A stretch of DNA of 52,652 nt, taken from positions 1-52,652 of the forward strand of contig DAIDKH010000027.1 of assembly GCA_027450145.1 (NCBI GenBank), written 5' to 3'. Below, one piece after another: positions 692-28,401 of this stretch. The stretch's first letter is position 1; every line of letters begins with the position of its first letter. The stretch comes from Chthonomonadaceae bacterium (GTDB lineage Bacteria > Armatimonadota > Chthonomonadetes > Chthonomonadales > Chthonomonadaceae). The notes under the pieces were generated by a model. The model worked only from the letters and a program-made list of their open reading frames with translations. It was not told where the DNA came from and made no database searches. The position numbers and the translations under genes were made by a program.

Positions 692-948
692 TAAATCTTC
701 TGGCCGCGTTGGTACCGGATTTTTGTGAAACTAATAATGCATTGTACCATACGTGTAGGGACTACCATTACTGTTCTGTGTACCTCTTACGTGTGTGGAT
801 CCGCCACTAATCGAGGGATTGCTCTTGTTTTAATAATTCTGTGCGTCGGTTATACAGACATACAAATTACCTGCCGATAATAGAACCGCATGGTCGAAAG
901 TGGGTTTGATTCTCGTGATATTCTGTGCAGATTGAGAGCAGGTGTACT

Positions 949-9202: not shown

Positions 9203-12200
9203 TTACGCGGCAGCGTCAATGGCATCGCCGCTTTCATACGGCTGTTGATCAATCGTAGCGCTAGGTTTGGTCTGATTCTCTGTGGGTTCCGTTTGAGCGG
9301 GTTGGGATTGCTCTATATCCGGCATTGCAACAAGTGCCCTGCGCGCTGCGGCTCGTATGTAGGGGTCTGGGTCTAGAGTCCGTGCTTTCATGGCGTTCCG
9401 TTGCGCGTCGCCAGATTCCTGACCTAGTTCGCTAAGATGGGCCAACCTAAATTCTCTGCCGAGCTTGTCACTCCAGAACGCCGATTCATCCATTGCCATT
9501 TCACAGCCATGATGCTTTGCCAAGGACATCGCCAACTGTTCAATCCCGTCGTCTGACTTTAGCGCGCTTTGCACGGCCGAGTACACCTCGGGATGCTGGT
9601 ACGCTTGTGAAAGCTCCTGCAGACCTGCAGGTAAATCTGCTGCATTGGCTTCATCATCGGCACTGGCTCGCCTGAACGCGCGGGAGATCTCTTCGGGGGT
9701 GTAGTCACCATAACCGAGCCGGAGTGAAACGATTCTTGCTGCTGCTGTCAGGACGTTTGGCTCCTGGTTCTCAGGCTTCCAGTGCGAATGCTGCGCGATG
9801 GCCGACGCTGCAACTGCCAGGTCGTTACCGGCACCGGCAAGTTTCTGCACTTGTTCCTCCTCACCCTCGTTAAAAAGGAGCCATTTCACTATCATGATGC
9901 GAGTCTTTTCCGCGGCGTCGGCTCGTTCCTCGGCAGCGTCCAACAACTCCGTGACACTCTCAGGATTAGCGCGCATGAGGGCTGGCAGGGCATATCCACT
10001 CTTGCTGTGAAGAGCGGCATGCACCGCGTGGTGCAGTGCGACGGGATGGTCGCTCTCTAGGAACAATGCACTAATGATATTCTCTCGCTGGCGGGCCGGT
10101 AGTTCATGCAACTTACTATCTACCACTTCGTTTGCAAGGTGACCATGGACGGTAAGCACTGCCGCGATCGCTGCATCGCGCGTGTTTGTTCTCAGCACGA
10201 CTTCGCTGTCTGTCTGCAACTGCCGTTCCTGGTCCAGAACATGTTTTAATGCCTTTGTGGTGCCCTCATCCAGCCATGGGAGCGATGCGAGTGCTGCTGC
10301 GGCAGGCAGAAAGCCGTCACCCAACAGCAGCTGTACCCACGTTTTCTCATAACGGTCATTGGTATGGCGCGCCAGAGTGGCAGCACATTCTGCACGAAGG
10401 TCCGCACCGCTCTTCTCGTCTTGCATAGCGGCAAGGAGGATCTCTTCACTCTTTCGTGCAGTGTATGGCATTAGAAGAGTTGCCGCGGAGGTTCGGATTT
10501 TGGTTGTTGGTGACTGTAAAAGCGGCAATAGCGCCGCAGCATAGGCGGGTGGCACACATTCCAATACCGCACGAGCATGCCGCAGGACGGAGGGTTCCAG
10601 GAGGCGTGCAGGCGTGGAAACTAGCTTGCTCATCCAATCCTTACTGTCGCAGCGTATGGGTGGTTGTGCATCGTAGATAAGCGGCGGTGTCTCCGGTGTA
10701 GAAGATTTAGCCTTCCTAGCCGGCCGCTCCACCGGCGTCTCGACCGGTAGGAGCGGTGCCGACTGCGAGCGATTCCATGGAAATCCCTTCGTTTTCATCT
10801 TGTATCTCCATTTAGGTGCAAATGCTAGTAACCAACGTAGGGCGAACTGAAAACCAGCATACAGTCGCCGAAAATAGAGCAATAATGTCGCAACGAGCAA
10901 CAAAAGCAACATCCACCATACCCACGACGGAACTCGATGGGTTGAACGATTTAGCCTGACAGCGATGCCTCGGGACGAGGCTCCAGAATCCTGGCCCTTT
11001 ACGGTGCTGGCATGATGCGAAATGTCATGTGGATGAGTCGAGTTAACATTGGAGGGTTGCGAGCCGCTGGTGACACCGGTGGATCCCGATTCAGAGGAGT
11101 TTGTAGGTCCTGTCGATGCCTTCACGGAGTTAGGAGCGGCGCCAATGGAACGTAAGGCTGGTGTAGAGCGATCGTTTGCATTGGATGACGTGGATGTGCT
11201 ACCAGAGCCAGGAGACAATGGACTGCCCCCCGAAGGAGCCGTGTCTAGAGGGCGATTTGGGGGTGCTGTGGCAGGTTGTTCCGCCACGGGGTATTGTGAT
11301 CCTCTACTCGGGTCCCGAGTTGTCCAGTGTTTGCTGCGCGGCGCTGGCGGTGGTACTGTCGAGGCTGAGCTTGCAGCCGCGCGTTTTGAGGCCGCTGAAC
11401 TGTCAGTAAATCCACTGGGGCCGATTCCTGGTGGAGTTGCGCGGCCGATCATCGGCGAGTTGTGGGGATTTGCTTGACCACTGCGCGTGGCCGCTAGTGC
11501 GGTATGGTGTGCCGACGGGTGTTTAAGTATGCCGGCATAATGAAGTAATGAACGAGTATCCGTCTGCCAATTCGTGCTGTGCAGCACAACTGTTATGATC
11601 TGTCGGCCATGAACTAGAGCTTCACCCACAAAACAGTAACCGGCCTTCGCCGTATAACCTGTTTTGATTCCCTCCATCCCAGGTACTGACCCCAACAGCG
11701 TGTCTGTGTTGACCAACGTCTCGATGCGGCCGCCAGGAAGGTCTATTTTGGTTGAATGAGTGCCCACTGCCCGTGCAAATGCCGGGTTGTTCATCGCCAT
11801 TCGAGCGATCAACGCAAGATCCCGTGCTGTTGCAAGGTGGCCAGGCGCATCCAAACCGTCCGGATTGACAAAATGGGAATGAGTTGCACCAGCTTTGGCG
11901 GCGAGTTGGTTCATTTTGGCGCTGAAAGCGGGAATACCTGGCCCTAGTGCCTCACCCACGGCTTCGGCAGCATCATTGGCGCTTTTAAGCAACATGGCAT
12001 AAAGCAGGGTTCGAGCCGAATAGGATCTGTTGGGTTGTACGCCAAGGGCAAGTCCCGGCATTGAAGCTGCGGTGGTGGTGGCCGTGATTGGAGTTGTGGG
12101 CGGGAGTTGTGCTAAGAGGAGCGCGGTGACGATCTTTGTGGTGCTTGCTGGTGGAAGTGGCAAATCAGGGTTATGGCCGTACAGCACGGTACCCGTCTCG

Positions 12201-12325
12201 GCGTCCATCACTACCGCAGCTTTGGCGGAGATCGGCGGCGGTGCGAGAGCCAACAGTGCTGTCGGCATGAGCGAAATAACGCCTGCAACGAGGCAGACGA
12301 AAAATCCCCGATGACAGGCGACCAA
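9203..12325 (-). CDS. D-alanyl-D-alanine carboxypeptidase (S11) fused to a helical-repeat domain
   Basis: From the N-terminus: signal/anchor helix, then an S11 penicillin-binding domain with all three active-site motifs (STTK at residues 61-64, SAN at 115-117, KTG at 221-223). A ~190-residue Ser/Thr/Pro-rich linker leads to a strong membrane helix at about 467-485 (WVWWMLLLLLVATLLLY), and a ~500-residue Ala/Leu-rich all-helical region follows. That last part contains recurring 'R..AA..L' units (TSAATLLMPYT, AECAATLARH, RAAARRALVAM) typical of HEAT/PBS-like repeats. The peptidase trims the terminal D-Ala of wall pentapeptides outside. With one internal membrane crossing the repeat domain should be cytoplasmic (inference). 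TTG 12325 is preferred to ATG 12370 because AGGAGGT sits 9 bases before it and the result is a clean signal peptide. S11 enzymes are usually about 400 residues. Confidence 0.85.
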   Translation of the reverse strand: MVACHRGFFVCLVAGVISLMPTALLALAPPPISAKAAVVMDAETGTVLYGHNPDLPLPPASTTKIVTALLLAQLPPTTPITATTTAASMPGLALGVQPNRSYSARTLLYAMLLKSANDAAEAVGEALGPGIPAFSAKMNQLAAKAGATHSHFVNPDGLDAPGHLATARDLALIARMAMNNPAFARAVGTHSTKIDLPGGRIETLVNTDTLLGSVPGMEGIKTGYTAKAGYCFVGEALVHGRQIITVVLHSTNWQTDTRSLLHYAGILKHPSAHHTALAATRSGQANPHNSPMIGRATPPGIGPSGFTDSSAASKRAAASSASTVPPPAPRSKHWTTRDPSRGSQYPVAEQPATAPPNRPLDTAPSGGSPLSPGSGSTSTSSNANDRSTPALRSIGAAPNSVKASTGPTNSSESGSTGVTSGSQPSNVNSTHPHDISHHASTVKGQDSGASSRGIAVRLNRSTHRVPSWVWWMLLLLLVATLLLYFRRLYAGFQFALRWLLAFAPKWRYKMKTKGFPWNRSQSAPLLPVETPVERPARKAKSSTPETPPLIYDAQPPIRCDSKDWMSKLVSTPARLLEPSVLRHARAVLECVPPAYAAALLPLLQSPTTKIRTSAATLLMPYTARKSEEILLAAMQDEKSGADLRAECAATLARHTNDRYEKTWVQLLLGDGFLPAAAALASLPWLDEGTTKALKHVLDQERQLQTDSEVVLRTNTRDAAIAAVLTVHGHLANEVVDSKLHELPARQRENIISALFLESDHPVALHHAVHAALHSKSGYALPALMRANPESVTELLDAAEERADAAEKTRIMIVKWLLFNEGEEEQVQKLAGAGNDLAVAASAIAQHSHWKPENQEPNVLTAAARIVSLRLGYGDYTPEEISRAFRRASADDEANAADLPAGLQELSQAYQHPEVYSAVQSALKSDDGIEQLAMSLAKHHGCEMAMDESAFWSDKLGREFRLAHLSELGQESGDAQRNAMKARTLDPDPYIRAAARRALVAMPDIEQSQPAQTEPTENQTKPSATIDQQPYESGDAIDAAA

Positions 12326-12423
12326 AATGTGCCGACCTCCTGCTAAAGCGTGGATATCGCCACTTCCCATGGCGTTACCAGCATTATTGGCAGGTTAGAG
12401 GCATTTACTCATAGCGCGGCAGT

Positions 12424-12609
12424 CTATTTAGTTGTCTTGAGTTCCTCTTGGTCTCGGGCAGTTGTCGTTGGAACAGTGTACAAGTGCACCTTGTCACCGG
12501 CCGCTATCGCCAGTAGAGTACCGTCCGGAGAGAACGCAATACTGCTCACCATCTCCGGAGCGTAGAGGGTTACTAACCGTTTGAAATCGTCTTCCTTGAA
12601 ATCGGCCAT
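12424..12609 (-). CDS. Mini-protein with one WD40-like blade
   Basis: From ATG 12609 this is a 61-residue protein. Residues 20-45 (VSSIAFSPDGTLLAIAAGD, then KVHLYTV) are one textbook WD40/beta-propeller blade, but a propeller needs four or more. It lies 33 bases after the Ig-type membrane protein gene and about 100 bases before the carboxypeptidase start, all on the minus strand. It may be a remnant of a larger WD40 gene, or a short partner. An upstream TTG at 12642, directly against the previous stop, is an alternative start. Confidence 0.5.
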   Translation of the reverse strand: MADFKEDDFKRLVTLYAPEMVSSIAFSPDGTLLAIAAGDKVHLYTVPTTTARDQEELKTTK

Positions 12610-12642: not shown

Positions 12643-14376
12643 TTAATTCGCGCCAGGTGCACCAGGAACCTGCGGTGTAGATGGCTGCGTGGTGGTCGGA
12701 ATGCTCCCAGCAGGCGGAGTTGAGCTGCTGTTAGGGGGCGGCTGCACTGGCTGAACAGGTGTCACCGTAATAGACTGGCTTACCGTTTTACCCAGGTTAT
12801 CGGCGGCAGTTAGCTCAAAGGTGGTGGGCGTATTAACCTGTACTTGCACCGAACCGGAGGATGGCAGGTTGGTGCCCAAAGAGGCTCCTTGATCACTGGT
12901 GATAGTGACACCCTGGCTTCGAATTGCAGACCACTTAAGTGTAATGGTACTACCCGTAGTTACCTTTTTGGGTTGGTAATTAAAACCTACAATTTTGGCG
13001 ACACTTGTATCCGCGGATACAACGACAACGGTGACTCTACGCTGTGCGGGAGATCCTTTACTGCCCTGTAGCGGCATTGCTCGTAACGTGTAAGTCACGG
13101 ACGAGGGGAGAGTGGGCGGCGCGGGTTTGACATCGGTTGATAGCGTGAAACTCGATAGGTGTTTATCTCCCGGGTCCAAAATATAGCCTGAACTGTTTTT
13201 GCCCTGCCACGTGAATGTAACGGGTTCGCCCAGATGAATTTCTGTACTGTCGGCAGCAAATGACTGTAGAGACGGTGGCGGCGGCAGTGGTGCCGGGTTT
13301 ACCTGAACCTGAGCGGAAGCATCGGTTTTGCCGCCAGCTCCACTTGCTGAGAGGGTGTACCGTATTATCTCCACATGACTGCACAACTCGGGAGTAACGG
13401 TCATGTTACCGCTGCTGGTACTGGGAGGCACATCGTAGACTGACTGGTTGGTAGTCTCGCTTGCCGAGGACGGAGCGTTAGGTAAAGGAACCTCACGGTG
13501 GCTGAGCGTGAATTTAAGGTGTTCACCCTGAACATTCCACGACAAAGTGACCGGAGTTCCAGCCGTTACGACAGCAGGTGTAATGTTAAAGGCGACGATA
13601 TGAGTGGCAGGTGGTTTCGGCGGTCGGAACAGCGCGTAACCTGCGGCACCAAGCATTACAACAAGTAGAAGCAGTCCAACCACGGGCGAGAGCAGGGCGT
13701 ACCGCTCGATCTGACCCTGGGTTTTTCCCGCGACGTAGGAGTCGTCCATCGAACGCGCCCATACAGTAAAACCAAACAGGCGCGGATTACCTAGCCATGC
13801 AGATACTTTGGGACGCACAGCAAGGGGGACCGTGCGGACCTCGCTCGGTTTTAGTGTGAGCCTATCCACATCAAATTCGTAGGCACACTCGTCGTCTGGA
13901 TCGCTTGCAGATAGCTCTACAACCTGCTCGGAATTTCCAAGGTTGGTGATTTGTACGTCGAAGTCGTTTAGAGGCCGCAGGAAGGTGGCAGCGGCACGGC
14001 GCGGTGCCATGTCGGCCTGCAATGAACCAAACGGCTTAACAGTAAGCATGGCCTGCGCGAGACCCACCTCGCCAGTCTCCATGGCTTGAACGCGCACTAC
14101 AAATGGATATGAACCGGCCCTGTTTGCACTCGATCTTGCAATGCGGAAATTTACACGCTCCTCGGCAGTTGCTCCGGCAGCTACGTTCACTGCGGGAACA
14201 GGAATGTTGTACCACTCGATGTCAACGCCCTCGATCTCAATTACCAACCGATCTGGCGCCGGCTGCTGGTTGACCATCGTGACGCTTAATTTGACCGACG
14301 TTCCAGGCTCTGCGATTAGGTCTGGTTCAGATAGCGTTACAACAATTTTTTGTATCTCTGGTGTGGTAGAGGACAT
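12643..14376 (-). CDS. Single-pass membrane protein with Ig-like domains on both sides
   Basis: A 577-residue protein with no signal peptide. Residues 1-225 hold two beta-sandwich units of the COG1470/CARDB-like kind (for example VKLSVTMVNQQ and FDVQITNLGNSEQVVEL). One membrane helix lies at about 228-250 (LLSPVVGLLLLVVMLGAAGYALF). Residues 260-535 contain three Ig/PKD-like repeats with the recurring phrase 'v.aG.pvtLsW', and the end is a Pro/Ser/Thr-rich tail. With no signal peptide the N-terminal sandwiches should be cytoplasmic and the C-terminal repeats outside. It heads a minus-strand group that continues into the WD40 mini-protein and the carboxypeptidase, under a consensus promoter at 14475-14504. 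Function unknown; an envelope scaffold is plausible. Confidence 0.75.
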   Translation of the reverse strand: MSSTTPEIQKIVVTLSEPDLIAEPGTSVKLSVTMVNQQPAPDRLVIEIEGVDIEWYNIPVPAVNVAAGATAEERVNFRIARSSANRAGSYPFVVRVQAMETGEVGLAQAMLTVKPFGSLQADMAPRRAAATFLRPLNDFDVQITNLGNSEQVVELSASDPDDECAYEFDVDRLTLKPSEVRTVPLAVRPKVSAWLGNPRLFGFTVWARSMDDSYVAGKTQGQIERYALLSPVVGLLLLVVMLGAAGYALFRPPKPPATHIVAFNITPAVVTAGTPVTLSWNVQGEHLKFTLSHREVPLPNAPSSASETTNQSVYDVPPSTSSGNMTVTPELCSHVEIIRYTLSASGAGGKTDASAQVQVNPAPLPPPPSLQSFAADSTEIHLGEPVTFTWQGKNSSGYILDPGDKHLSSFTLSTDVKPAPPTLPSSVTYTLRAMPLQGSKGSPAQRRVTVVVVSADTSVAKIVGFNYQPKKVTTGSTITLKWSAIRSQGVTITSDQGASLGTNLPSSGSVQVQVNTPTTFELTAADNLGKTVSQSITVTPVQPVQPPPNSSSTPPAGSIPTTTQPSTPQVPGAPGAN

Positions 14377-15946: not shown

Positions 15947-17083
15947 ATGATGTCAATTGCTCGCATGCAAATTGTTGCTTGCTTAACTGTTCTTTTTACA
16001 TTGGGGTTCTGGCCAATCGGCGCATATGCAGCTCAAACTCCAACGACCCCCTCAGCAGAGGTGCTGTTGAACTCCTGGCAGGCATGGATTCACAATGTTG
16101 GAGCGAAGTTACATTCGTATCAACTGAATGCAACTTCCAGTTGTGTTGAGGCACACTCGAAAAATCAATGGCAGGCTATTGTAGATGGCAAACAGTATCG
16201 TTGGTCCTATCAAAACCCAATAGTGAATCCCCAAGCCGCAATGCAGACGAGCGCTATATTAGCAGTGAACCGTGTGGGGTGGTCGTTTTTAACGTACCAA
16301 ACTGGCGCTAAGCCGCCAGACAAGAGTTACCTGGGCACACAGTACACGCAGTCATTCACAAGCCTCCACAGTGGACTTCATTGGTTTTATGCGCAGAATG
16401 TGCCATTCAGCCTGGCCGATTTCGCTCGGTATCCGCAAATACTATGGTCACACTTCCCTCTTGAGAACCAGTTGCCGCTCATTTCATACTATCAACGAGA
16501 GTTGGGCCACCTTACTGTAAGTGTGGTGAAACCGCGCGGCGTCTCTAAGAGCAGTAGATACCGACTCACAATGCCTCAGCGCTATATTCCATCAGACCTT
16601 GCATTGCCCAGGTACGTGGATTTTCGGGTGCTGAATGGTACATTCATCCCAGTGCGGCTCGTTGTTTATGTTGGCAATTTAAAAACAATGGGGTCGATGC
16701 GCCTCCGAGTCTACTTCACTGGCGGCGGAATGTTCGCTGGGGTTTGGTTTCCTACCCAAATTGCGGCAGACTCAGATTTTGTGTCGTATTACCGGACACA
16801 CCCGTATGCTCGGTTCTGGTCACCAACATTTCATGGTAGAGTCAGTTTGGACGTTAGCAAGGTGAACCAGCCATTTCCAGAATCGGACTTTACTATTGCT
16901 TTCCCACCTGGTACGCACGTTACGATCAACAACGTGAGTGAAGTTATCCCGCTGAACCACGTGGAACCCAAATGGAAGGTGCTTGCGGTGAGAGCCCTCT
17001 TGGCAATTAGTGCAGTTCTTGTGATCGGCATAGCGGTAATCGCATTACGTCGGGCACGATCCCGAGGCAGTTACGCCCAATAG
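15947..17083 (+). CDS. Exported membrane-anchored protein, LolA-like(?), paralogue A
   Basis: A 378-residue protein with a signal peptide (residues 1-29, ending GAYA), an extracytoplasmic domain and a C-terminal anchor helix at about 347-366 followed by a basic tail. It shares clear similarity along its length with the protein at 17511-18656: IVDGKQYRW versus IVDGTRYRW, LHWFYAQNVPF versus LHWFFAQRLPF, AGVWFPT in both, and SDFTIAFPPGT versus SDFTINFPPGT. The opening 'w..~~~sy.l......w.aivdG..yR' is reminiscent of LolA/LolB-type lipid-binding barrels, but this is only a suggestion. AAGAGGTG precedes the ATG. The gap of 245 bases separates it from the overlapping gene chain that starts at 17329. 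Confidence 0.7.
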   Translation: MMSIARMQIVACLTVLFTLGFWPIGAYAAQTPTTPSAEVLLNSWQAWIHNVGAKLHSYQLNATSSCVEAHSKNQWQAIVDGKQYRWSYQNPIVNPQAAMQTSAILAVNRVGWSFLTYQTGAKPPDKSYLGTQYTQSFTSLHSGLHWFYAQNVPFSLADFARYPQILWSHFPLENQLPLISYYQRELGHLTVSVVKPRGVSKSSRYRLTMPQRYIPSDLALPRYVDFRVLNGTFIPVRLVVYVGNLKTMGSMRLRVYFTGGGMFAGVWFPTQIAADSDFVSYYRTHPYARFWSPTFHGRVSLDVSKVNQPFPESDFTIAFPPGTHVTINNVSEVIPLNHVEPKWKVLAVRALLAISAVLVIGIAVIALRRARSRGSYAQ

Positions 17084-17328
17084 GGTGGTCGTGACTGCAG
17101 CTTGTAGTTGCCAGCGAGATTTCAGTTCCAGCCTGTTTGCAGCCGGAAAGTTGCTGGTGAACAACTTGGGCCTGGCGCCTTGTTACTGGCAGACACTACA
17201 AGCGAAATGCATTGACGTCGCACATTCTCGAGGACATTTCTTCTGAACGCGCGGAACGGTTGCCCAATTGCTTGCAGTTGTGGTCGCTGAATCAGATCAC
17301 AAACTGGATGAAACTGTAGGTGAAAACA

Positions 17329-17514
17329 ATGATTTACCGTATCATGATTGGTGTGGGCATGGCGGTTGCGATCTGTGGACTGATGTATTCTGCGTCCAAT
17401 TCACCGTTGAGCAGAGTTCCTGCCCAATACTGCGGTGTCTGTACAATGCCCCAGGTAGCGCATACCTCGGGAATTCTGACACAGTATCCTCGAAGAAACG
17501 GGGTGCGGCGGTGA
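17329..17514 (+). CDS. Small membrane protein heading the overlapping operon
   Basis: A 61-residue protein from ATG 17329 (AGGTG a few bases upstream; a GTG at 17320 is also possible). One hydrophobic helix near the N-terminus (YRIMIGVGMAVAICGLMY) is followed by a short polar tail containing a CxxC (CGVC). Its stop overlaps the GTG start of the next gene by four bases (GTGA), which argues for translation coupling. No family recognised. It could be a leader peptide that sets translation of the next gene. Confidence 0.55.
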   Translation: MIYRIMIGVGMAVAICGLMYSASNSPLSRVPAQYCGVCTMPQVAHTSGILTQYPRRNGVRR

Positions 17515-18656
17515 ACCCCCGTTCTGCGCGTACTAACACGCTGTGGATAGTAATTGTGATCAGTGAGCTGTTGCTCCCCGGTTCAACACGGGCCGCACGC
17601 CTGCCGACCGCACCATCGCCTCAGGTGTTAGTTGGTGCCTGGCAGGAATGGGCCGAGTTAGTGGTAGCAAACATGCGCTCTTACAGGCTTGATGGAACGG
17701 TGTTGGTTGCTTATTCTGCAAAGCCTGTCCAATGGCACTCAATTGTGGATGGCACACGATATCGCTGGTGGTATCGATATCCGCGGGTAAAGGGATCTCA
17801 TCAGGCCATTTGGTCCGACACACTGGCTGTTAACGGCTCACGATTCAGCTGCCTGGAGCACCAAGAGAAAACTCTTGGTGTACCCGCTCCGCTTACAGGC
17901 GCCAACTACCAGAATGATCACGACCAGCTCCAACCGTACCTGCATTGGTTTTTCGCTCAACGGTTGCCGTTTAATGTACAGGACTTTAGTCAGTATCCAC
18001 ACCTCCTGATAGCCGACTCACCAGTGGAATATCAAAAGCCCTTGGTAGATTACTACGCTGAGAACCTTAGGAACCTTGCCGTACATGAGGTGCTTTCGCG
18101 CGGTACAAATAACAATACGCGGTATCGCCTTTCGTTACCCGCTCGCCTCATCCCTTCGGGACTGGTCATGCCTTGCGACGTGGAGTTTGTTGAGAAATCT
18201 GGCACGTTTGTGCCCGTAAACTTCGTTACCTACGTCGGCGATCACACGAGCGCTTTTGGCATTCGGTATATCATCCAATTTGTGCATGAAGCACGGTACG
18301 CGGGAGTATGGTTTCCCACTGTTATCCATGTCTCCGTTGCAATGTCAACCAGTAGGAGCGCACGTCCTAGTCACAATCGGGTATGGGTGCCTCAGAAAAG
18401 CTTTGGTGGTGTGTACACAATTGCCATTAGCGACGTTAACCAGGAATTCCCTCCTTCCGACTTTACGATTAACTTCCCACCAGGGACGCAACTGGTTGGT
18501 AACTTTGCCGCTTCGTCCGGCTATGGCTACCCACCAAGGCGCAGTTTGAATGTTCGAGCAATCGTGATCATTGCAGGATTATCCATCATACTATTCGCCT
18601 GGGTTATGATGCAGATAAGCACGAAGAACGGCCGAGAGGGCAAACAACCCAAATGA
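17511..18656 (+). CDS. Exported membrane-anchored protein, LolA-like(?), paralogue B
   Basis: Starting at GTG 17511 gives a 381-residue protein matching paralogue A (15947-17083) in length and layout: signal peptide (TLWIVIVISELLLPGST, cut near RAA), extracytoplasmic domain, and anchor helix near residues 350-370 (IVIIAGLSIILFAWVMM) with a basic end. The frame is open back to 17268, but that extension has no export signal pattern and would overlap the small membrane gene entirely. The two copies differ widely outside the conserved blocks, so the duplication is old. The stop overlaps the next start as ATGA. Confidence 0.75.
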   Translation: MNPRSARTNTLWIVIVISELLLPGSTRAARLPTAPSPQVLVGAWQEWAELVVANMRSYRLDGTVLVAYSAKPVQWHSIVDGTRYRWWYRYPRVKGSHQAIWSDTLAVNGSRFSCLEHQEKTLGVPAPLTGANYQNDHDQLQPYLHWFFAQRLPFNVQDFSQYPHLLIADSPVEYQKPLVDYYAENLRNLAVHEVLSRGTNNNTRYRLSLPARLIPSGLVMPCDVEFVEKSGTFVPVNFVTYVGDHTSAFGIRYIIQFVHEARYAGVWFPTVIHVSVAMSTSRSARPSHNRVWVPQKSFGGVYTIAISDVNQEFPPSDFTINFPPGTQLVGNFAASSGYGYPPRRSLNVRAIVIIAGLSIILFAWVMMQISTKNGREGKQPK

Positions 18657-19666: not shown

Positions 19667-20940
19667 GTGAGCGCGGCTATTCGATAGTGACGCACGCCGT
19701 TGACTTCGCGGCTGAAGTACTTACATTAGGTTGTATACTACCGTGCCTGCTTTGGCCATACCTGCGATTTTGTCCTAATGTCGGCCACGTGCCGCTGTCC
19801 CTGCTTCTCAGCGCGACTGTCAATCGCCCAGGTATGACCGGTGTCGCGCTTGTTGTAGGTCTTCTAATTACGGTAGCCGTCTATGCGACTAAGGGGCGCC
19901 AGGCGGGCGCCCTCTCACTTATTGGACTGCTTTTCGCGGCATGTACTGCTATTCGTTACAGTTACGACAGCGCAATGATTCTTCCTTGGCTAGCATTCAT
20001 CCTCTGTTTGGCAGTTATGGGAGATGCACGTCTTACTATTGCTGCATTCCTGTATATAATGCTCATTGCGAATGTCACTGTTGGAGCCGTTGCTTATGCA
20101 ATACACCTTCACCAGTTTTCTGCAGCAGTAGTTGGTGTAAGGGCTTCTGGTCTATCCGGATCTCCAATCCTATTTAGTCCGCTTTGTATGTTAACGTTCT
20201 TCGGCAGCGCCGCGCTCCTAGGCACATCAAAACGCTGGGTGCGGTTAGCGGCACAAGTAGTTGCAATAATGTCCGTGGTCATGCTACTGTTAACATTTAC
20301 GCGCGCGGGATGGATCGCCACGGCTATTGCTAGTGCTGCAGGTATAGGCTACCTGCGTAAGTCCACAAGGTTATGGATGTTGACATTATCGGTGGTCGTC
20401 ATGGTAGGAGCCTTCCTGGTTCGCGCTGATGGAAAAGTATCACGAATTGCGCATGAGCGTTCCCTTACGGGGCGCACGAAGACCTGGGCGTTAGCAGGAA
20501 GTGCTGTCCTTCAGCATCCCATCTACGGGCTCAACCCCACTCAGCAAGAGACCCTTCAGCAACGTACCGTCATTCTCCTTACCGCACAAGGGTATAAGGA
20601 CATCTCGCTATCCGCAAAGAACACGTACCTGGATTTCGCCATAGATTATGGTGTGGCAGCTCTCATGCTGCTGGTCCTAATGTTCGCCGCGATCATGAGG
20701 AAATGCTTGCGCACGCTCAAAGTGCCATCAATGAACCATGCACACAAGATGATCGTTTGGTGGTGCCTGCTCGCGATCATCGGGCTGGGTCTTGAGTCTC
20801 TAGTGGACGACACACTGTTTTTTCACAGCGATACTCTTCCTGTAACGGTTGTGCTGTTAACACTTTTAGGTCTTGCTGGAGGTATTGCGTTTACATCAGG
20901 TTCGGGCACCACCGAGGCGGCATCACCAACTAATGACTAG
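19663..20940 (+). CDS. O-antigen ligase / polysaccharide polymerase-like membrane protein
   Basis: A 425-residue polytopic protein with about ten to twelve hydrophobic segments. Family hallmarks of the Wzy/WaaL-like group are visible: TFTRAGWIATAI (the 'sRag' helix, about residue 212), a large periplasmic loop beginning with the Arg-rich SLTGRTKTW (about residue 266), and NTYLDFAIDYGV (about residue 325, matching the usual 'HN.yl....e.G' after the loop, here with Asn-Thr in place of His-Asn). Such proteins polymerise or transfer undecaprenyl-linked glycans on the outer face of the inner membrane. ATGA overlap with the DUF1573 gene, and 8-base overlap with the next gene. Confidence 0.8.
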   Translation: MSERGYSIVTHAVDFAAEVLTLGCILPCLLWPYLRFCPNVGHVPLSLLLSATVNRPGMTGVALVVGLLITVAVYATKGRQAGALSLIGLLFAACTAIRYSYDSAMILPWLAFILCLAVMGDARLTIAAFLYIMLIANVTVGAVAYAIHLHQFSAAVVGVRASGLSGSPILFSPLCMLTFFGSAALLGTSKRWVRLAAQVVAIMSVVMLLLTFTRAGWIATAIASAAGIGYLRKSTRLWMLTLSVVVMVGAFLVRADGKVSRIAHERSLTGRTKTWALAGSAVLQHPIYGLNPTQQETLQQRTVILLTAQGYKDISLSAKNTYLDFAIDYGVAALMLLVLMFAAIMRKCLRTLKVPSMNHAHKMIVWWCLLAIIGLGLESLVDDTLFFHSDTLPVTVVLLTLLGLAGGIAFTSGSGTTEAASPTND

Positions 20941-23083
20941 TACACCTGTACGTCCCTCAATGTTAGAACATAGTCCGTCGCGTGGCCGCAATCGATTGGC
21001 TGCGACTTTTAGGCTTGGCTACCTTTTGTGGATGCTTAGCTTCATAAAGGACTGGTTCACCTCCGAGGCAACTCAATATCCAGAGAGGATATTTGCCAAG
21101 CAGGCAGTCAGCATATTGGTCGTGGGGGCCATTCTGTTATGGCCTGCCACCCGCGGTCCAAAGCTTCGTCTTCTGTGGTCAATAATTGCGGTTGGCGCGG
21201 TATGGACGCTGTCACCTCCGCTACTGGTTACGTTCGCAGGCATATGCACGGCCCTCGCACTTGATGTAGAGCTGTGCCGTCCAGGTCGGGTTGCTGCGCT
21301 CATCTGCACGATAGCTTCGTACTGTGCGCTATCGCACCTGTCGCGAACAGGTTTTGGGGCGGCCACTTTAGCTATTGTAGTGAGCTGGTTGTGCGCCGCA
21401 CCAGATATGAGGGGACGGCTACGTCGTGATGTTTTGGCGCCTCTTGTCATCGCCGTTCTTGCGCTGTTTGTGGCACTCACTTTCATGCCAGGTACCAATT
21501 GCAACGTGACAATATTGGGCCTGGGGCTAGGTCTGTCGCATTCACATCATATCGGTACGCTGCTGCTAGAAGAACAGGGTGTGATCGGACTGGTGTGCGC
21601 GTTTGCAATCAGTTACATCGCACTAATCTCATCGTTGATTTTACTGACAGATGTTGCCGTGACCAGGGAGGGTAGACAGAGTGCCGCCGTAACCTGTGGA
21701 GGGCTTGCGGGCCTAATGCTGTTAGCACATACGGGTGCTCCATTCCTGTCTGTCAGTGCTACAAGTGGAACTCTAGCCTTTTCTGTTTTAGTGGCAGCAG
21801 GGATTTTGGCGCTCGACGTTCGATCATCAGCCGAGCTTGGTAAATCGATCACTCGACTTAAGTTCATAATGCGCTTTAGCGCGGTCGCACTTACGGTAAT
21901 CGCAATACCGATAAGCCTGTGGGTGGCAACTGTCTCATTTAGGGCCTACCATCAGGTACTGCCGCTGCGAGTTAGTGGCTCACCACACAAATGGCAAAAC
22001 CACTGGGTGCCATTAGCGGCAGTATCCACGAAAATGAAGGACTCAACCATTGCGATGGAAGATAGCTCCTTTTATAGGAACTGCGGGATCGATTTTGCCG
22101 CGGAGCACTATGCTCTCCGGGCAGATTTACGCGCGGGCAGACCAGTCCTAGGTGGAAGCACGATTACCCAGCAACTTGCCCGCAATCTGTTTTTGAATAA
22201 ACGCAAGACGATTGCAAGAAAGGCTACCGAGGCGGTCTATGCGCTAGTGCTGGGGCGAATGCTGACGAAAGACAGAATTCTGGAGCTCTACCTCAACCTG
22301 GTGAACTATGGTATGGGGCGACGCGGCATCTATGCTGCCGCACTCGGCTATTTTCACCGCTTGCCCTCGCAACTGACATTAGCCCAGAGTGCGGTGCTGG
22401 TAGGCATTGTACCGCGGCCACCGCGTCTATCTACTTATACGACCAACGACGGTGAACCACCTTATCCTCCCATTGCCAGACTGGACCGTGGCCGTAATAT
22501 CGCACTTTCGCGGCTTCAAGCAACCTATCCTCAGCGGTACTCCCCTGATGAAATAACAGACGCACGGGTTCTTCCCATAACATCGCTGGTCTATCCCTGG
22601 AAGGATGCCTTGGATAGAGGGGCTGTGGATGTTATTCCACCGGTTTGGCACGGTGTGTCATTCTACTCATTTAGTGAACCATCGCAACCGATTGCCCTCA
22701 GTAATGTTTCGCCTTACCTGAAGACGCAGCTAAGGAAATTCGTATTGTTTGCTCGCAAACACCTCGGCCTTACAGGCATCGACGACCTAGGCGTCTATTG
22801 TGATCGAGCGGTTCGCGGGCATCCTACGATTCTCTCAAGTCATGCCTACGGCCAGGCCATCGATATTTCAGGTTTCCGGTTTGCGAACAACACTCAGCTA
22901 TTGGTAGCCCAGCACAGCCACAAATCCGCGTGCCAAAAGCTGCTCGCAATAGAGCAGCAATTGAGAAGATACTTCAACCCTGTGGTGGATTGGCGATCCG
23001 ATCCAAGGTGGCACAATACTCACTTTCACTGCGAAGTAAAGGGACCGCGCACCGACGATGCGCAGACCGGGAGACAGCCATGA
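20933..23083 (+). CDS. Three-part envelope enzyme: polytopic membrane domain + GT51 transglycosylase + extensin-like peptidase domain
   Basis: From ATG 20933 this is a 716-residue protein. Residues about 30-335 are membrane-spanning, with a [11 protein letters not shown] helix near 135 and [17 protein letters not shown] near 205, resembling O-antigen ligase/Wzy or SEDS polymerase signatures. Residues about 355-500 are a complete GT51 peptidoglycan glycosyltransferase: EDSSF (376-380, catalytic Glu), [12 protein letters not shown] (407-418), ILELYLN (449-455), then the YF and 'A.LvGi.prPP' endings. Residues about 585-705 match extensin-like C / LAS-type Zn peptidases: [10 protein letters not shown] (635-644) and HNTHFHCE (694-701) supply the His/Asp ligands. 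There is no PBP transpeptidase domain. Ordinary monofunctional GT51 enzymes are about 240 residues with one anchor helix. The stop overlaps the prepilin start as ATGA. Confidence 0.85.
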
Positions 23084-25459: not shown

Positions 25460-26461
25460 ATGCGATATCCCATTGGCTTTACTATGGCCCAATACCGACA
25501 TCGGCGCAAGATGGAAAAATCGGGGCAATCCCGCTACCCAACGGTGCTCATGTTGGAGCCACTGTATACGTGCAACCTCGCCTGCCTTGGTTGTTCGGTT
25601 GAGCGGCATACGGGTAAGCTGAAAGACCGAATGTCCTTGGAGACCTGCTTTAAGGCAGTCGAAGATTGTGGCGCCCCGATCATCAACCTCTGTGGCGGCG
25701 AGCCAACCCTCTATCCTGAGTTGAAAGAGCTTTGCGAAGGGCTTATTTCACGTGGTAAGTACATAATCCTCTGCACAAATGCATTAAAGCTCGATTCCAA
25801 AGTGTTCAACGTAATTCCGCCCAGCCCCAATCTCTTCCTCATGATTCACCTTGACGGCATGAAACAAACGCACGATTTTGTATGCAATCGTGAGGGCGTT
25901 TTCGATCATGCCATAAAGATGATTGAGCAAGGCGTTAAGCTTGGCTACACCATTTACATCAACACCACAGTATTTAAGGAAACCTCGGTCGACGAGGTTG
26001 AGGAGCTGTGCCGCCTTGTAGATAAGTTGAAGGCAAAAGGTATTCTCATCTCCCCTGGTTACGAATACGAAAGCGTTGAGCGCAATATGTTCCTTACGCA
26101 GGATCAGATTCACGAGAAGTTTGGCAAGATCCGTGAGTTCTCGAGTAAATACAAGGTGAGCGCGACGCCAGCATTCCTTGAATTTGCCGCTGGTTTGCGA
26201 GAACTTCCCTGTGCCCCCTGGTCAACAGTGAATTACACGCCCATGGGTTGGAAGGCGCCTTGCTATCTGGTTGGCGAGAAGTTCATTCCTGATTGGGATA
26301 CGTTCTGGAACAAGACTAACTGGGAATATTGGGAGTCTAGGCAGGATCCCAAATGCAAGAACTGCAAGATGCATAGTGGCTTTGAGCACAGCGCGGTCGA
26401 GGAGGCCATGAAGACCCCGAAGGGGATGTTGCAGCTGGCTGCCTGGTCTCTGACGGGTTAG
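25460..26461 (+). CDS. hpnH: Hopanoid radical SAM protein HpnH (adenosylhopane synthase)
   Basis: A 333-residue radical SAM enzyme. The cluster motif reads CNLACLGC (CxxxCxxC, about residues 38-45), followed by NLCGGEPTLYPE (SAM-binding GGE). The N-terminus MRYPIGFTMAQYR and the C-terminal CKNCKMHSGFEHSA are characteristic of HpnH. In the known pathway HpnH adds the 5'-deoxyadenosyl group of SAM to diploptene, giving adenosylhopane, the first extended hopanoid. It is the first gene of a block containing hpnA, ispH and hpnG. The squalene-hopene cyclase gene is not in the window. Confidence 0.95.
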   Translation: MRYPIGFTMAQYRHRRKMEKSGQSRYPTVLMLEPLYTCNLACLGCSVERHTGKLKDRMSLETCFKAVEDCGAPIINLCGGEPTLYPELKELCEGLISRGKYIILCTNALKLDSKVFNVIPPSPNLFLMIHLDGMKQTHDFVCNREGVFDHAIKMIEQGVKLGYTIYINTTVFKETSVDEVEELCRLVDKLKAKGILISPGYEYESVERNMFLTQDQIHEKFGKIREFSSKYKVSATPAFLEFAAGLRELPCAPWSTVNYTPMGWKAPCYLVGEKFIPDWDTFWNKTNWEYWESRQDPKCKNCKMHSGFEHSAVEEAMKTPKGMLQLAAWSLTG

Positions 26462-26471
26462 GCTTGTCTAG

Positions 26472-27473
26472 ATGACATCGCTGGTGACCGGTGCGACAGG
26501 ATTTGTAGGCTTTCATACCGCTGCCTTGCTTGTCGAACGAGGTGAAAAGGTCCGCCTTCTGGTACGATCAACGAGCCGTTTGGACAACGTACGAGAGCTT
26601 TCGTCGTCATCCGCTGACGTCGTGTTCGGTGATCTTAACGACAGTGCCTCACTTGTAAAGGCTGCTGCGGGTTGTGACATGGTATACCATGTGGCCGCTG
26701 ATTATCGACTGTGGGCTGCAAATCCCACCGATCTTTACGAAGCAAATGTCACAGGCTCACTAAACGTTATGCACGCTGCACGAGCGGTAGGCGCCAGGCG
26801 CGTGGTGTATACCAGCACTGTGGGCGCGCTAGGTCACACATCAGACGGTAGTCCAGCGAACGAAGATACCGACGTTTGTGAGGCAGACATGGTGGGGCAT
26901 TACAAACTGTCGAAATATCGGGCAGAGCAGGAAGTGCTTAAATTGGCTGCCGAGGGACAGGATATAGTTATCGTTAATCCTAGCACGCCAGTGGGGGATC
27001 ACGATATAAAGCCGACTCCGACCGGGCAGATCATCGTCGATTTCCTGAACGGTAGGATGCCAGCGTACATGGATACTGGCCTGAACATCGTAGACGTGAG
27101 GGATGTCGCGCAAGGAATTCTACTTGCAGGTGAAAACGGTGTCTCGGGCCGTAAGTATATTTTGGGGTGCGAAAACCTTACTTTAAAGAATATACTGGAT
27201 ACACTTGCACGTATTTCCGGTCGACGTGCCCCCAGAGTGCGGATGCCTTATGCCGCGGCATTTGCAGCAGTTGCGCTAGAAAATGTTGTTGCCCGAGCAT
27301 GTGGCAGTGCGCCGGCACATCCGCTGGATGGTGTTAGAATGGCGCGGCATCCTATGTTTTTTGACGCCTCGCGGGCCGTTAATGAACTTGGGATGCCCCA
27401 GACACCGGTAGAGTGCGCACTTCAGAGGGCAGTGGAATGGTTTCGGTCTAATGGCTACATCAGGGCTAAGTAG
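26472..27473 (+). CDS. hpnA: Hopanoid-associated sugar epimerase HpnA
   Basis: A 333-residue extended SDR starting 10 bases after hpnH. It has the NAD motif GATGFVG (residues 7-13), the HpnA-typical VYHVAADYRLWA (about residue 75), a Ser/Thr in YTSTVGALG, and the catalytic YKLSK (YxxxK). The 'NPSTPVGDHDIKPTPTG' region is also characteristic of the family. HpnA is a predicted NAD(P)-sugar epimerase or reductase that travels with hopanoid genes; its substrate is not firmly established. No strong ribosome site precedes the ATG, suggesting coupling to hpnH translation. Confidence 0.93.
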   Translation: MTSLVTGATGFVGFHTAALLVERGEKVRLLVRSTSRLDNVRELSSSSADVVFGDLNDSASLVKAAAGCDMVYHVAADYRLWAANPTDLYEANVTGSLNVMHAARAVGARRVVYTSTVGALGHTSDGSPANEDTDVCEADMVGHYKLSKYRAEQEVLKLAAEGQDIVIVNPSTPVGDHDIKPTPTGQIIVDFLNGRMPAYMDTGLNIVDVRDVAQGILLAGENGVSGRKYILGCENLTLKNILDTLARISGRRAPRVRMPYAAAFAAVALENVVARACGSAPAHPLDGVRMARHPMFFDASRAVNELGMPQTPVECALQRAVEWFRSNGYIRAK

Positions 27474-27516
27474 CAAACGTTGACTTGGCCCGCCGGGATA
27501 ATTTCAGGAGGTTTGT

Positions 27517-28401
27517 ATGAGTGAGGGTTCACGTCGAACGGTCATAATGGCGCGCGAGGTAGGGTTCTGTTTTGGTGTAAAGCGAGCTATAAACCTTACC
27601 CGGCAGGCACTTGCAGAGCGAAATAACGTTTTCATCCTGGGGGATCTAGTTCACAACAAGCGTGTAACTGATGAGTTGGAAGAGAAGGGCTTGCGGAAGA
27701 TTGAGGATTATGGAAACGAAAAGTCCGGTACCATGATCATTCGCGCCCATGGCCTTCCTAAGGTTCGCCTGCAGGAGGCGAAAAACAGGGGCGTGGATGT
27801 AGTGGATGCCACATGCCCGATCGTTTTGCGCGCGCAGGAAGCTGCGCAGATGCTTGAGCGTGATGGCTACCAGGTTGTTATCATTGGCGATAGCAATCAT
27901 GCTGAGATTAAGGGCATTTTGGGCGCACTAGAAAACCCAGCTCTTGTCATCGACAGCATTGAGGAGCTTCACGAGGCGAAGAAGAGTTATCGCTTGTTGC
28001 GTAAAGTGGGCGTGATTTTTCAAACGACGCACGCGTTGGAGCTTTGTAACAGCATCGTTAACGAGATGCTTATGATGTGCAAAGAGATACGCATTATAAA
28101 CACGATATGCAGGCCGGTTCAAAATCGTCAAGACGATGCACTGGAACTCGCAGGCAAAGTCGATCTTATGATTGTTGTTGGCTCGCGCACTAGCGCAAAC
28201 ACAGTAGAACTGGCTGCGCTGTGCAGGTATCACAATCCGAACACGATACAGGTGCAAAACGCGGACGAGCTGGAACTGCGGGACCTGGATGGATTCAGGG
28301 TGATCGGAATTGCGTCCGGGCTTTCTACCCCCGAAGACCTCGTGGAGGCGGTACGCGTTAAGGTTGTTACCTCTGAACTTGAGCCGGCTGCAGCTAGCTG
28401 A
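27517..28401 (+). CDS. ispH: 4-hydroxy-3-methylbut-2-enyl diphosphate reductase
   Basis: A 294-residue protein with the three [4Fe-4S] cysteines (GFCFGVKRA, DATCPIV, NTICRPVQ), substrate-binding His residues in GDLVHNKR and IRAHG, and the catalytic His/Glu in SNHAEIKG. IspH makes IPP and DMAPP, the last step of the MEP isoprenoid pathway. AGGAGG lies 6 bases before the ATG. Its placement between hopanoid genes ties precursor supply to hopanoid synthesis. The frequent ATC/ATT change in the C-terminal RQ motif (RPVQNRQ rather than AT..RQ) is within family variation. Confidence 0.93.
   Translation: MSEGSRRTVIMAREVGFCFGVKRAINLTRQALAERNNVFILGDLVHNKRVTDELEEKGLRKIEDYGNEKSGTMIIRAHGLPKVRLQEAKNRGVDVVDATCPIVLRAQEAAQMLERDGYQVVIIGDSNHAEIKGILGALENPALVIDSIEELHEAKKSYRLLRKVGVIFQTTHALELCNSIVNEMLMMCKEIRIINTICRPVQNRQDDALELAGKVDLMIVVGSRTSANTVELAALCRYHNPNTIQVQNADELELRDLDGFRVIGIASGLSTPEDLVEAVRVKVVTSELEPAAAS

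Follow-up and report, generated by a model that had tools for sequence, protein, structure and literature searches.

The window analysed here is a stretch of 52,652 nucleotides of contig DAIDKH010000027.1 from a member of the Chthonomonadaceae (Armatimonadota). Its minus strand carries an open frame at 9203-12370 (1055 codons counted from ATG 12370) in which a peptidase S11 domain is followed by a low-complexity linker, a hydrophobic helix and a large helical domain (Table 1). The TTG at 12325, which yields a product of 1040 amino acids, was preferred as the start over the ATG at 12370, which would add 15 residues, because AGGAGG lies 10 nt 5' of the TTG and because an identical AGGAGGTCGGCACAT precedes a GTG at the equivalent position in two congeners (L014 and L019). 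Residue numbers are counted from ATG 12370 throughout.

Table 1. Features of the fusion gene and its upstream region, in window coordinates
Feature	Position	Strand	Basis
CDS, S11-linker-TM-HEAT protein	9203..12325	-	open frame; conserved Shine-Dalgarno and start position
Shine-Dalgarno AGGAGG	12336..12341	-	kept in L014, L019
N-terminal hydrophobic segment, probable signal peptide (FVCLVAGVISLMPTALLAL)	12245..12325	-	hydropathy 2.38
Peptidase S11 D,D-carboxypeptidase domain, residues 43-275	11546..12244	-	Pfam PF00768; solved S11 chains
Active-site SxxK (STTK)	12134..12145	-	invariant 8/8
Active-site SxN (SAN)	11975..11983	-	invariant 8/8
Active-site KTG	11657..11665	-	invariant 8/8
Low-complexity linker, ~204 residues	10934..11545	-	19% mean identity among orthologues
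Predicted transmembrane helix 480-498 (VPSWVWWMLLLLLVATLLL)	10877..10933	-	hydropathy peak in 8/8 and charge
Basic juxtamembrane segment	10661..10876	-	sequence; charge count
HEAT-type alpha-helical domain, residues 571-1010	9341..10660	-	HEAT_2 8/8; alphaRep profile match; low-confidence all-helical model
Variable C-terminal tail, Ala-Ala end	9206..9340	-	AA terminus in 7/8 orthologues
Promoter-like element CTGCCAATAAT, 5' of fusion gene	12383..12393	-	related element ahead of 6/8 orthologues
61-residue ORF, single WD40-like blade, directly upstream	12424..12609	-	kept in L014, L019, L017
Upstream membrane protein, FixG_C-type Ig-like domains	12643..14376	-	Pfam PF11614; neighbour in L014, L017, L019

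Peptidase_S11 (PF00768) matched residues 43-265 with E=3.2e-43 and 148.4 bits against a curated cut-off of 27.6. The three motifs that the initial annotation had read from the sequence, STTK (76), SAN (130) and KTG (236), lie in that order and are invariant in all eight orthologues. The nearest solved chains are 4RYE, 4PPR (DacB1) and 4P0M (E ~1e-35), named as the D,D-carboxypeptidases Rv3330 (DacB1) and Rv2911 (DacB2) of Mycobacterium tuberculosis. On this evidence the protein is an S11 D,D-carboxypeptidase of the exported type with intact motifs, and is presumably both exported and catalytically active.

Besides its catalytic domain, PBP5 (DacA) of Escherichia coli has another that is rich in beta structure; it is anchored by a C-terminal amphipathic segment and lacks a cytoplasmic domain. 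The fusion protein has the S11 catalytic domain and its motifs in common with PBP5 and its relatives, but gave no Pfam match to the PBP5 C-terminal domain; the linker and the membrane helix stand in place of the PBP5-type C-terminal parts. The initial view that S11 enzymes normally carry an amphipathic anchor does not fit this family. Rv3330 departs from it too, with a signal peptide, a single C-terminal transmembrane helix and an S11 domain that lacks the PBP5 C-terminal part (PMC4281109). Within the family, several ordinary S11 paralogues have a membrane helix and a short basic tail at the C-terminus. These paralogues (G000:C16, L001 among them) have frames of ~400-514 aa and lack the HEAT domain. 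In a tree, the S11 domains of the fusion proteins formed one clade with 100/100 support, separate from 13 ordinary paralogues, which on sequence evidence makes the S11-HEAT fusion an event of single origin. An ordinary paralogue was found above the cut-off in six of the eight fusion genomes, and not in G002 (74% complete) or G005. As membrane anchoring is common among the ordinary paralogues, the novelty of the fusion lies in the long linker and the HEAT domain.

The linker, for which a disordered segment of ~190 residues had been proposed, is about 204 residues long in the window protein and 70% S, T, P, G, N, Q or A; its length among the orthologues ranges from about 111 to 207. The internal membrane helix noticed at the outset was placed at 480-498 (mean hydropathy 2.15) and is followed by a basic stretch. 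Rv3330 ends with its transmembrane helix region, whereas the fusion protein has the long linker before the helix and ~557 residues, including the HEAT domain, after it. Each of the eight orthologues has one strong hydrophobic peak between the linker and the HEAT domain, and in all eight the net positive charge of the 30 residues after the helix exceeds that of the 30 before, by a small margin in two of them (5 vs 4 and 3 vs 2). The helical part holds between three and eight cysteines per orthologue, none of them invariant. The signal-like N-terminal segment and the charge asymmetry at the helix together predict an S11 enzyme outside and a C-terminal HEAT domain inside. The protein thus very probably crosses the inner membrane and ends in a large cytoplasmic HEAT-repeat domain, the orientation suggested initially and now favoured by the homologues, the family profiles and the charge pattern.

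Synthesis of the HEAT part as a separate internal translation product was considered and rejected, as no Shine-Dalgarno and start just after the membrane helix were shared among the orthologue matches listed. The Chthonomonas calidirosea orthologue (L013) alone has an ATG at 483, right after the helix, with GATAGGAGGAAT upstream; production of a soluble HEAT protein from this codon is conceivable in that organism.

The identity of the helical domain was established at the level of the family. HEAT_2 matched the whole window protein with E=0.1 and the domain alone with E=0.024, both below the Pfam gathering score, so that the window protein by itself is only suggestive. The same Pfam family matched all eight members at E<=1 (best 7.3e-12), and a profile of the eight members matched designed HEAT proteins (alphaRep) among solved structures with E=1.6e-14, at both domain ends (profile positions about 44-160 and 378-471). 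It is on these family results that the HEAT assignment is firm, and the profile search called for in the initial annotation bears out its description of a HEAT-like C-terminal region. A single-sequence AlphaFold2 model of the domain was all-helical, with 28 helices and low confidence (pLDDT 52), and a model of its first 190 residues was no better (pLDDT 54). A Foldseek search with the low-confidence model returned mostly armadillo and HEAT proteins as best matches, at non-significant E-values of 0.2 and worse. From its sequence profile, the domain can be accepted as being of HEAT type at its two ends, with a middle part that is helical but unassigned. Binding of proteins is an established function of HEAT domains.

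A first search of relatives found the C-terminal half in 8 of 31 genomes. A profile search then placed the full-length domain in 8 of the 17 family genomes, from six genera (g1, g2, g4, g5, g9 and g11), so the fusion sought in relatives does recur; a short, weak match in genus g3 was not an orthologue and was left out of the count. All full-length matches are contained in single open frames, 924-1068 aa long, that have S11 at the N-terminal end. The genome of carrier G003 consists of a single contig; its match region contains one TAG, at the end of the profile, and the L013 frame is open for 984 aa to its stop. Among 291 genomes of the phylum no full-length HEAT domain was found elsewhere, the one further match (G289) being short and weak. 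A single-sequence query of genome contigs gave only an irrelevant match, in a Prevotellaceae record, to the transmembrane helix of the query. The domain layout is, by these comparisons, real and conserved in the family. As about half of the family's genomes lack the fusion, its function is not a core one in this family.

Within the genus of the window, dN was 0.16-0.17 for the S11 domain and 0.15-0.20 for the helical domain, whereas the linker reached 0.9-1.05 and the tail 0.8-0.9. As dS was saturated for most regions, dN/dS ratios are not given. The similarity of the first two values and the far higher values of the other regions indicate that the helical domain is under selection and make the linker look like a spacer. 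Mean identity across genera is 54% for the S11 domain, 37% for the helical domain and 19% for the hardly alignable linker. Residues R573, W579, R824, W830, S882, R884, L885, F965 and W966 of the helical domain are invariant.

The variable tail ends in Ala-Ala in seven of the eight orthologues (IDAAA, INEAA, IDEAA, IDQAA, LDQAA, YSEAA and SKRAA), the exception being that of C. calidirosea. Eight of the 118 ORFs in the stretches examined, a set outside which G002 falls, end in this way; six of them are fusion genes and two are others. ALAA is a classic ending of cytoplasmic degrons, and the tmRNA tags of six fusion genomes end in it. The C-terminal Ala-Ala of the fusion protein is thus a possible cytoplasmic degron, with A, E, Q or R at position -3, the site of Leu in the tag.

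Candidate partners were sought in the surrounding genes. The fusion gene lies downstream of the FixG_C-type membrane protein and the 61-residue ORF in two genera (the window, L014 and L019 in one and L017 in the other), the FixG_C-type neighbour being 52-93% identical in L014, L017 and L019. In three genera it lies downstream of a radC-type gene, and in L015 neither arrangement is present. The 61-residue ORF matches Pfam WD40 with E=7e-4, below the cut-off of that family; a lone WD40 blade, found here between the FixG_C protein and the fusion gene, is odd. The neighbours change between genera: no division or elongation gene adjoins the fusion in the stretches examined, and no partner gene linked to it across the whole family was found in these neighbourhoods. 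All 17 family genomes contain MreB, whether they carry the fusion or not, so that it does not discriminate carriers. Bactofilin was rejected as the inner partner, having been detected in no fusion carrier and only in four family genomes that lack the fusion (G004, G007, G013 and G015, of genera g3 and g6). This pattern involves four genomes of two genera and may reflect nothing but phylogeny.

The explanation that best accommodates these observations, and that is held to be probable, is that the protein is a bitopic D,D-carboxypeptidase whose positioning or regulation takes place from the cytoplasmic side, by way of the HEAT domain. Exported by means of the signal peptide, the S11 domain would act in the periplasm by removing the terminal D-Ala from peptidoglycan stem peptides, and the disordered linker would give it reach into the wall. 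The single membrane helix would stop transfer and return the chain to the cytoplasmic side, where the HEAT domain of ~440 residues would dock on a protein partner, and this partner would position or regulate the enzyme. Because enzyme and HEAT domain form one membrane-crossing protein, a partner in the cytoplasm could steer the trimming of the wall outside. More tentatively, and less likely than not, the HEAT domain may be a platform dedicated to docking, through which information on position or cell cycle crosses the membrane to the carboxypeptidase; it would have a partner inside the cell, and the C-terminus would supply a degradation signal of its own. If so, peptidoglycan trimming would be controlled from the inside out, in a way not previously described for S11 enzymes. 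Of the initial proposal, that wall trimming may be coupled to an inner scaffold or to the division or elongation machinery, coupling to a scaffold is a reasonable idea; the neighbourhoods examined offered neither a partner nor an adjoining division or elongation gene.

Against control from the cytoplasm through a docked partner stand the lack of a family-wide linked gene (FixG_C and the 61-residue ORF accompany the fusion in two genera and radC does so in three, with neither present in another), the absence of the fusion from about half of the genomes, a topology drawn from hydropathy and charge, and the pLDDT of 52-54 of the HEAT models. The main rival is control by proteolysis, in which the cytoplasmic part is a control handle: degradation via the C-terminal Ala-Ala would set the abundance of the protein, and the HEAT domain would be a sensor or adaptor and not a scaffold. 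The retention of Ala-Ala in seven of eight proteins after a poorly alignable tail, its rarity among the other ORFs examined and the ALAA ending of the tmRNA tags all favour it, but the Leu of the tag is not shared, the C. calidirosea protein lacks the ending and the eight tails are not independent, and this explanation is considered unlikely. It is also possible to reverse the roles and regard the S11 domain as a wall-linked anchor for a HEAT domain with a cytoplasmic task of its own. The two domains are equally constrained within the genus, and the ordinary S11 paralogue in six of the eight fusion genomes means that the trimming activity of the fusion may be redundant; invariance of all three catalytic motifs, and of many further positions in the S11 domain, would not, however, be expected if it were a mere anchor, and the reversal is quite unlikely.

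The two remaining alternatives concern the layout itself. The HEAT domain would be extracytoplasmic if 480-498 were not a stop-transfer helix or if the chain made further membrane passes, as an aromatic, partly hydrophobic stretch after the helix (about 504-520) in the genus of the window might suggest. The one strong hydrophobic peak per orthologue, the excess of positive charge after the helix in 8/8 and the lack of an invariant cysteine argue against this arrangement, which is very improbable. An artefactual joining of two genes through a frameshift or an assembly error, the latter named at the outset as a possible refutation, can be discounted almost entirely: the window comes from a 168-contig draft and nothing else was found in its favour, but eight separate assemblies, one of them single-contig, contain the same single-frame protein, and the matches listed show no conserved start after the helix.

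Recruitment of a bitopic wall hydrolase from the cytoplasm has a precedent. The M23 endopeptidase LmdC of Hyphomonas and Rhodospirillum is bitopic, and its cytoplasmic tail binds the bactofilin BacA (PMC10945521). It is an analogue and not a homologue, a wall hydrolase placed by its cytoplasmic segment, as proposed for the fusion protein; it differs in enzyme family and in having a 38-residue N-terminal tail in place of a C-terminal HEAT domain, and bactofilin went undetected in the fusion carriers. PomY of Myxococcus xanthus, part of a cytoplasmic division-site complex, combines a coiled coil, six HEAT repeats and a disordered region (PMC10307791); the analogy is through the HEAT repeats, and its described architecture, unlike that of the fusion, includes neither a wall enzyme nor a membrane helix. 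The enzyme and the repeat are of known kinds, and it is their joining across the membrane that is new and restricted to this lineage. No account of an S11-HEAT fusion came up in a full-text search confined to open-licence papers, which speaks only weakly for novelty; the one hit had the two key terms in unrelated passages.

Little is understood of how D,D-carboxypeptidases are placed, partly since the enzymes commonly investigated lack a large cytoplasmic part. A natural carboxypeptidase with a cytoplasmic protein-binding domain would make the question directly testable, with the HEAT domain as a ready bait for an inner partner, and C. calidirosea T49 has been isolated in culture. Few studies deal with the cell envelope of the Armatimonadota: no paper emerged from a full-text search that combined peptidoglycan, cell division and penicillin-binding proteins for this phylum.

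An element of the form CT(A/G)CC(A/G)ATAAT precedes six of the eight fusion orthologues. CTGCCRATAAT occurs 19 times in the genome, against two occurrences of a reversed control pattern, and about half of the copies lie inside frames; the window contains two, at 12383-12393 (-) and 871-881 (+). Its use as the mark of a regulon was rejected, since the intergenic copies precede several unrelated genes and are more simply read as a core promoter element. The motif is similar to a core promoter or to a -10 element of sigma-28 type.

Several other loci in the window were noted. At 20873-23083 (+), 8 kb from the fusion gene, a GT51 transglycosylase and an Extensin-like_C domain share one frame, an unusual combination of wall enzymes. 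Two adjoining paralogues at 15947-18656 (+), with frames of 378 and 462 aa and no Pfam match, are kept in the congener L014 and, in comparisons involving L014, are about 35% identical across the pair. The genes at 25460-28401 (+) follow a hopanoid-type order (radical SAM with DUF3463, epimerase, LytB), and this region is syntenic with L017, in which hopanoid-type genes adjoin the fusion locus.
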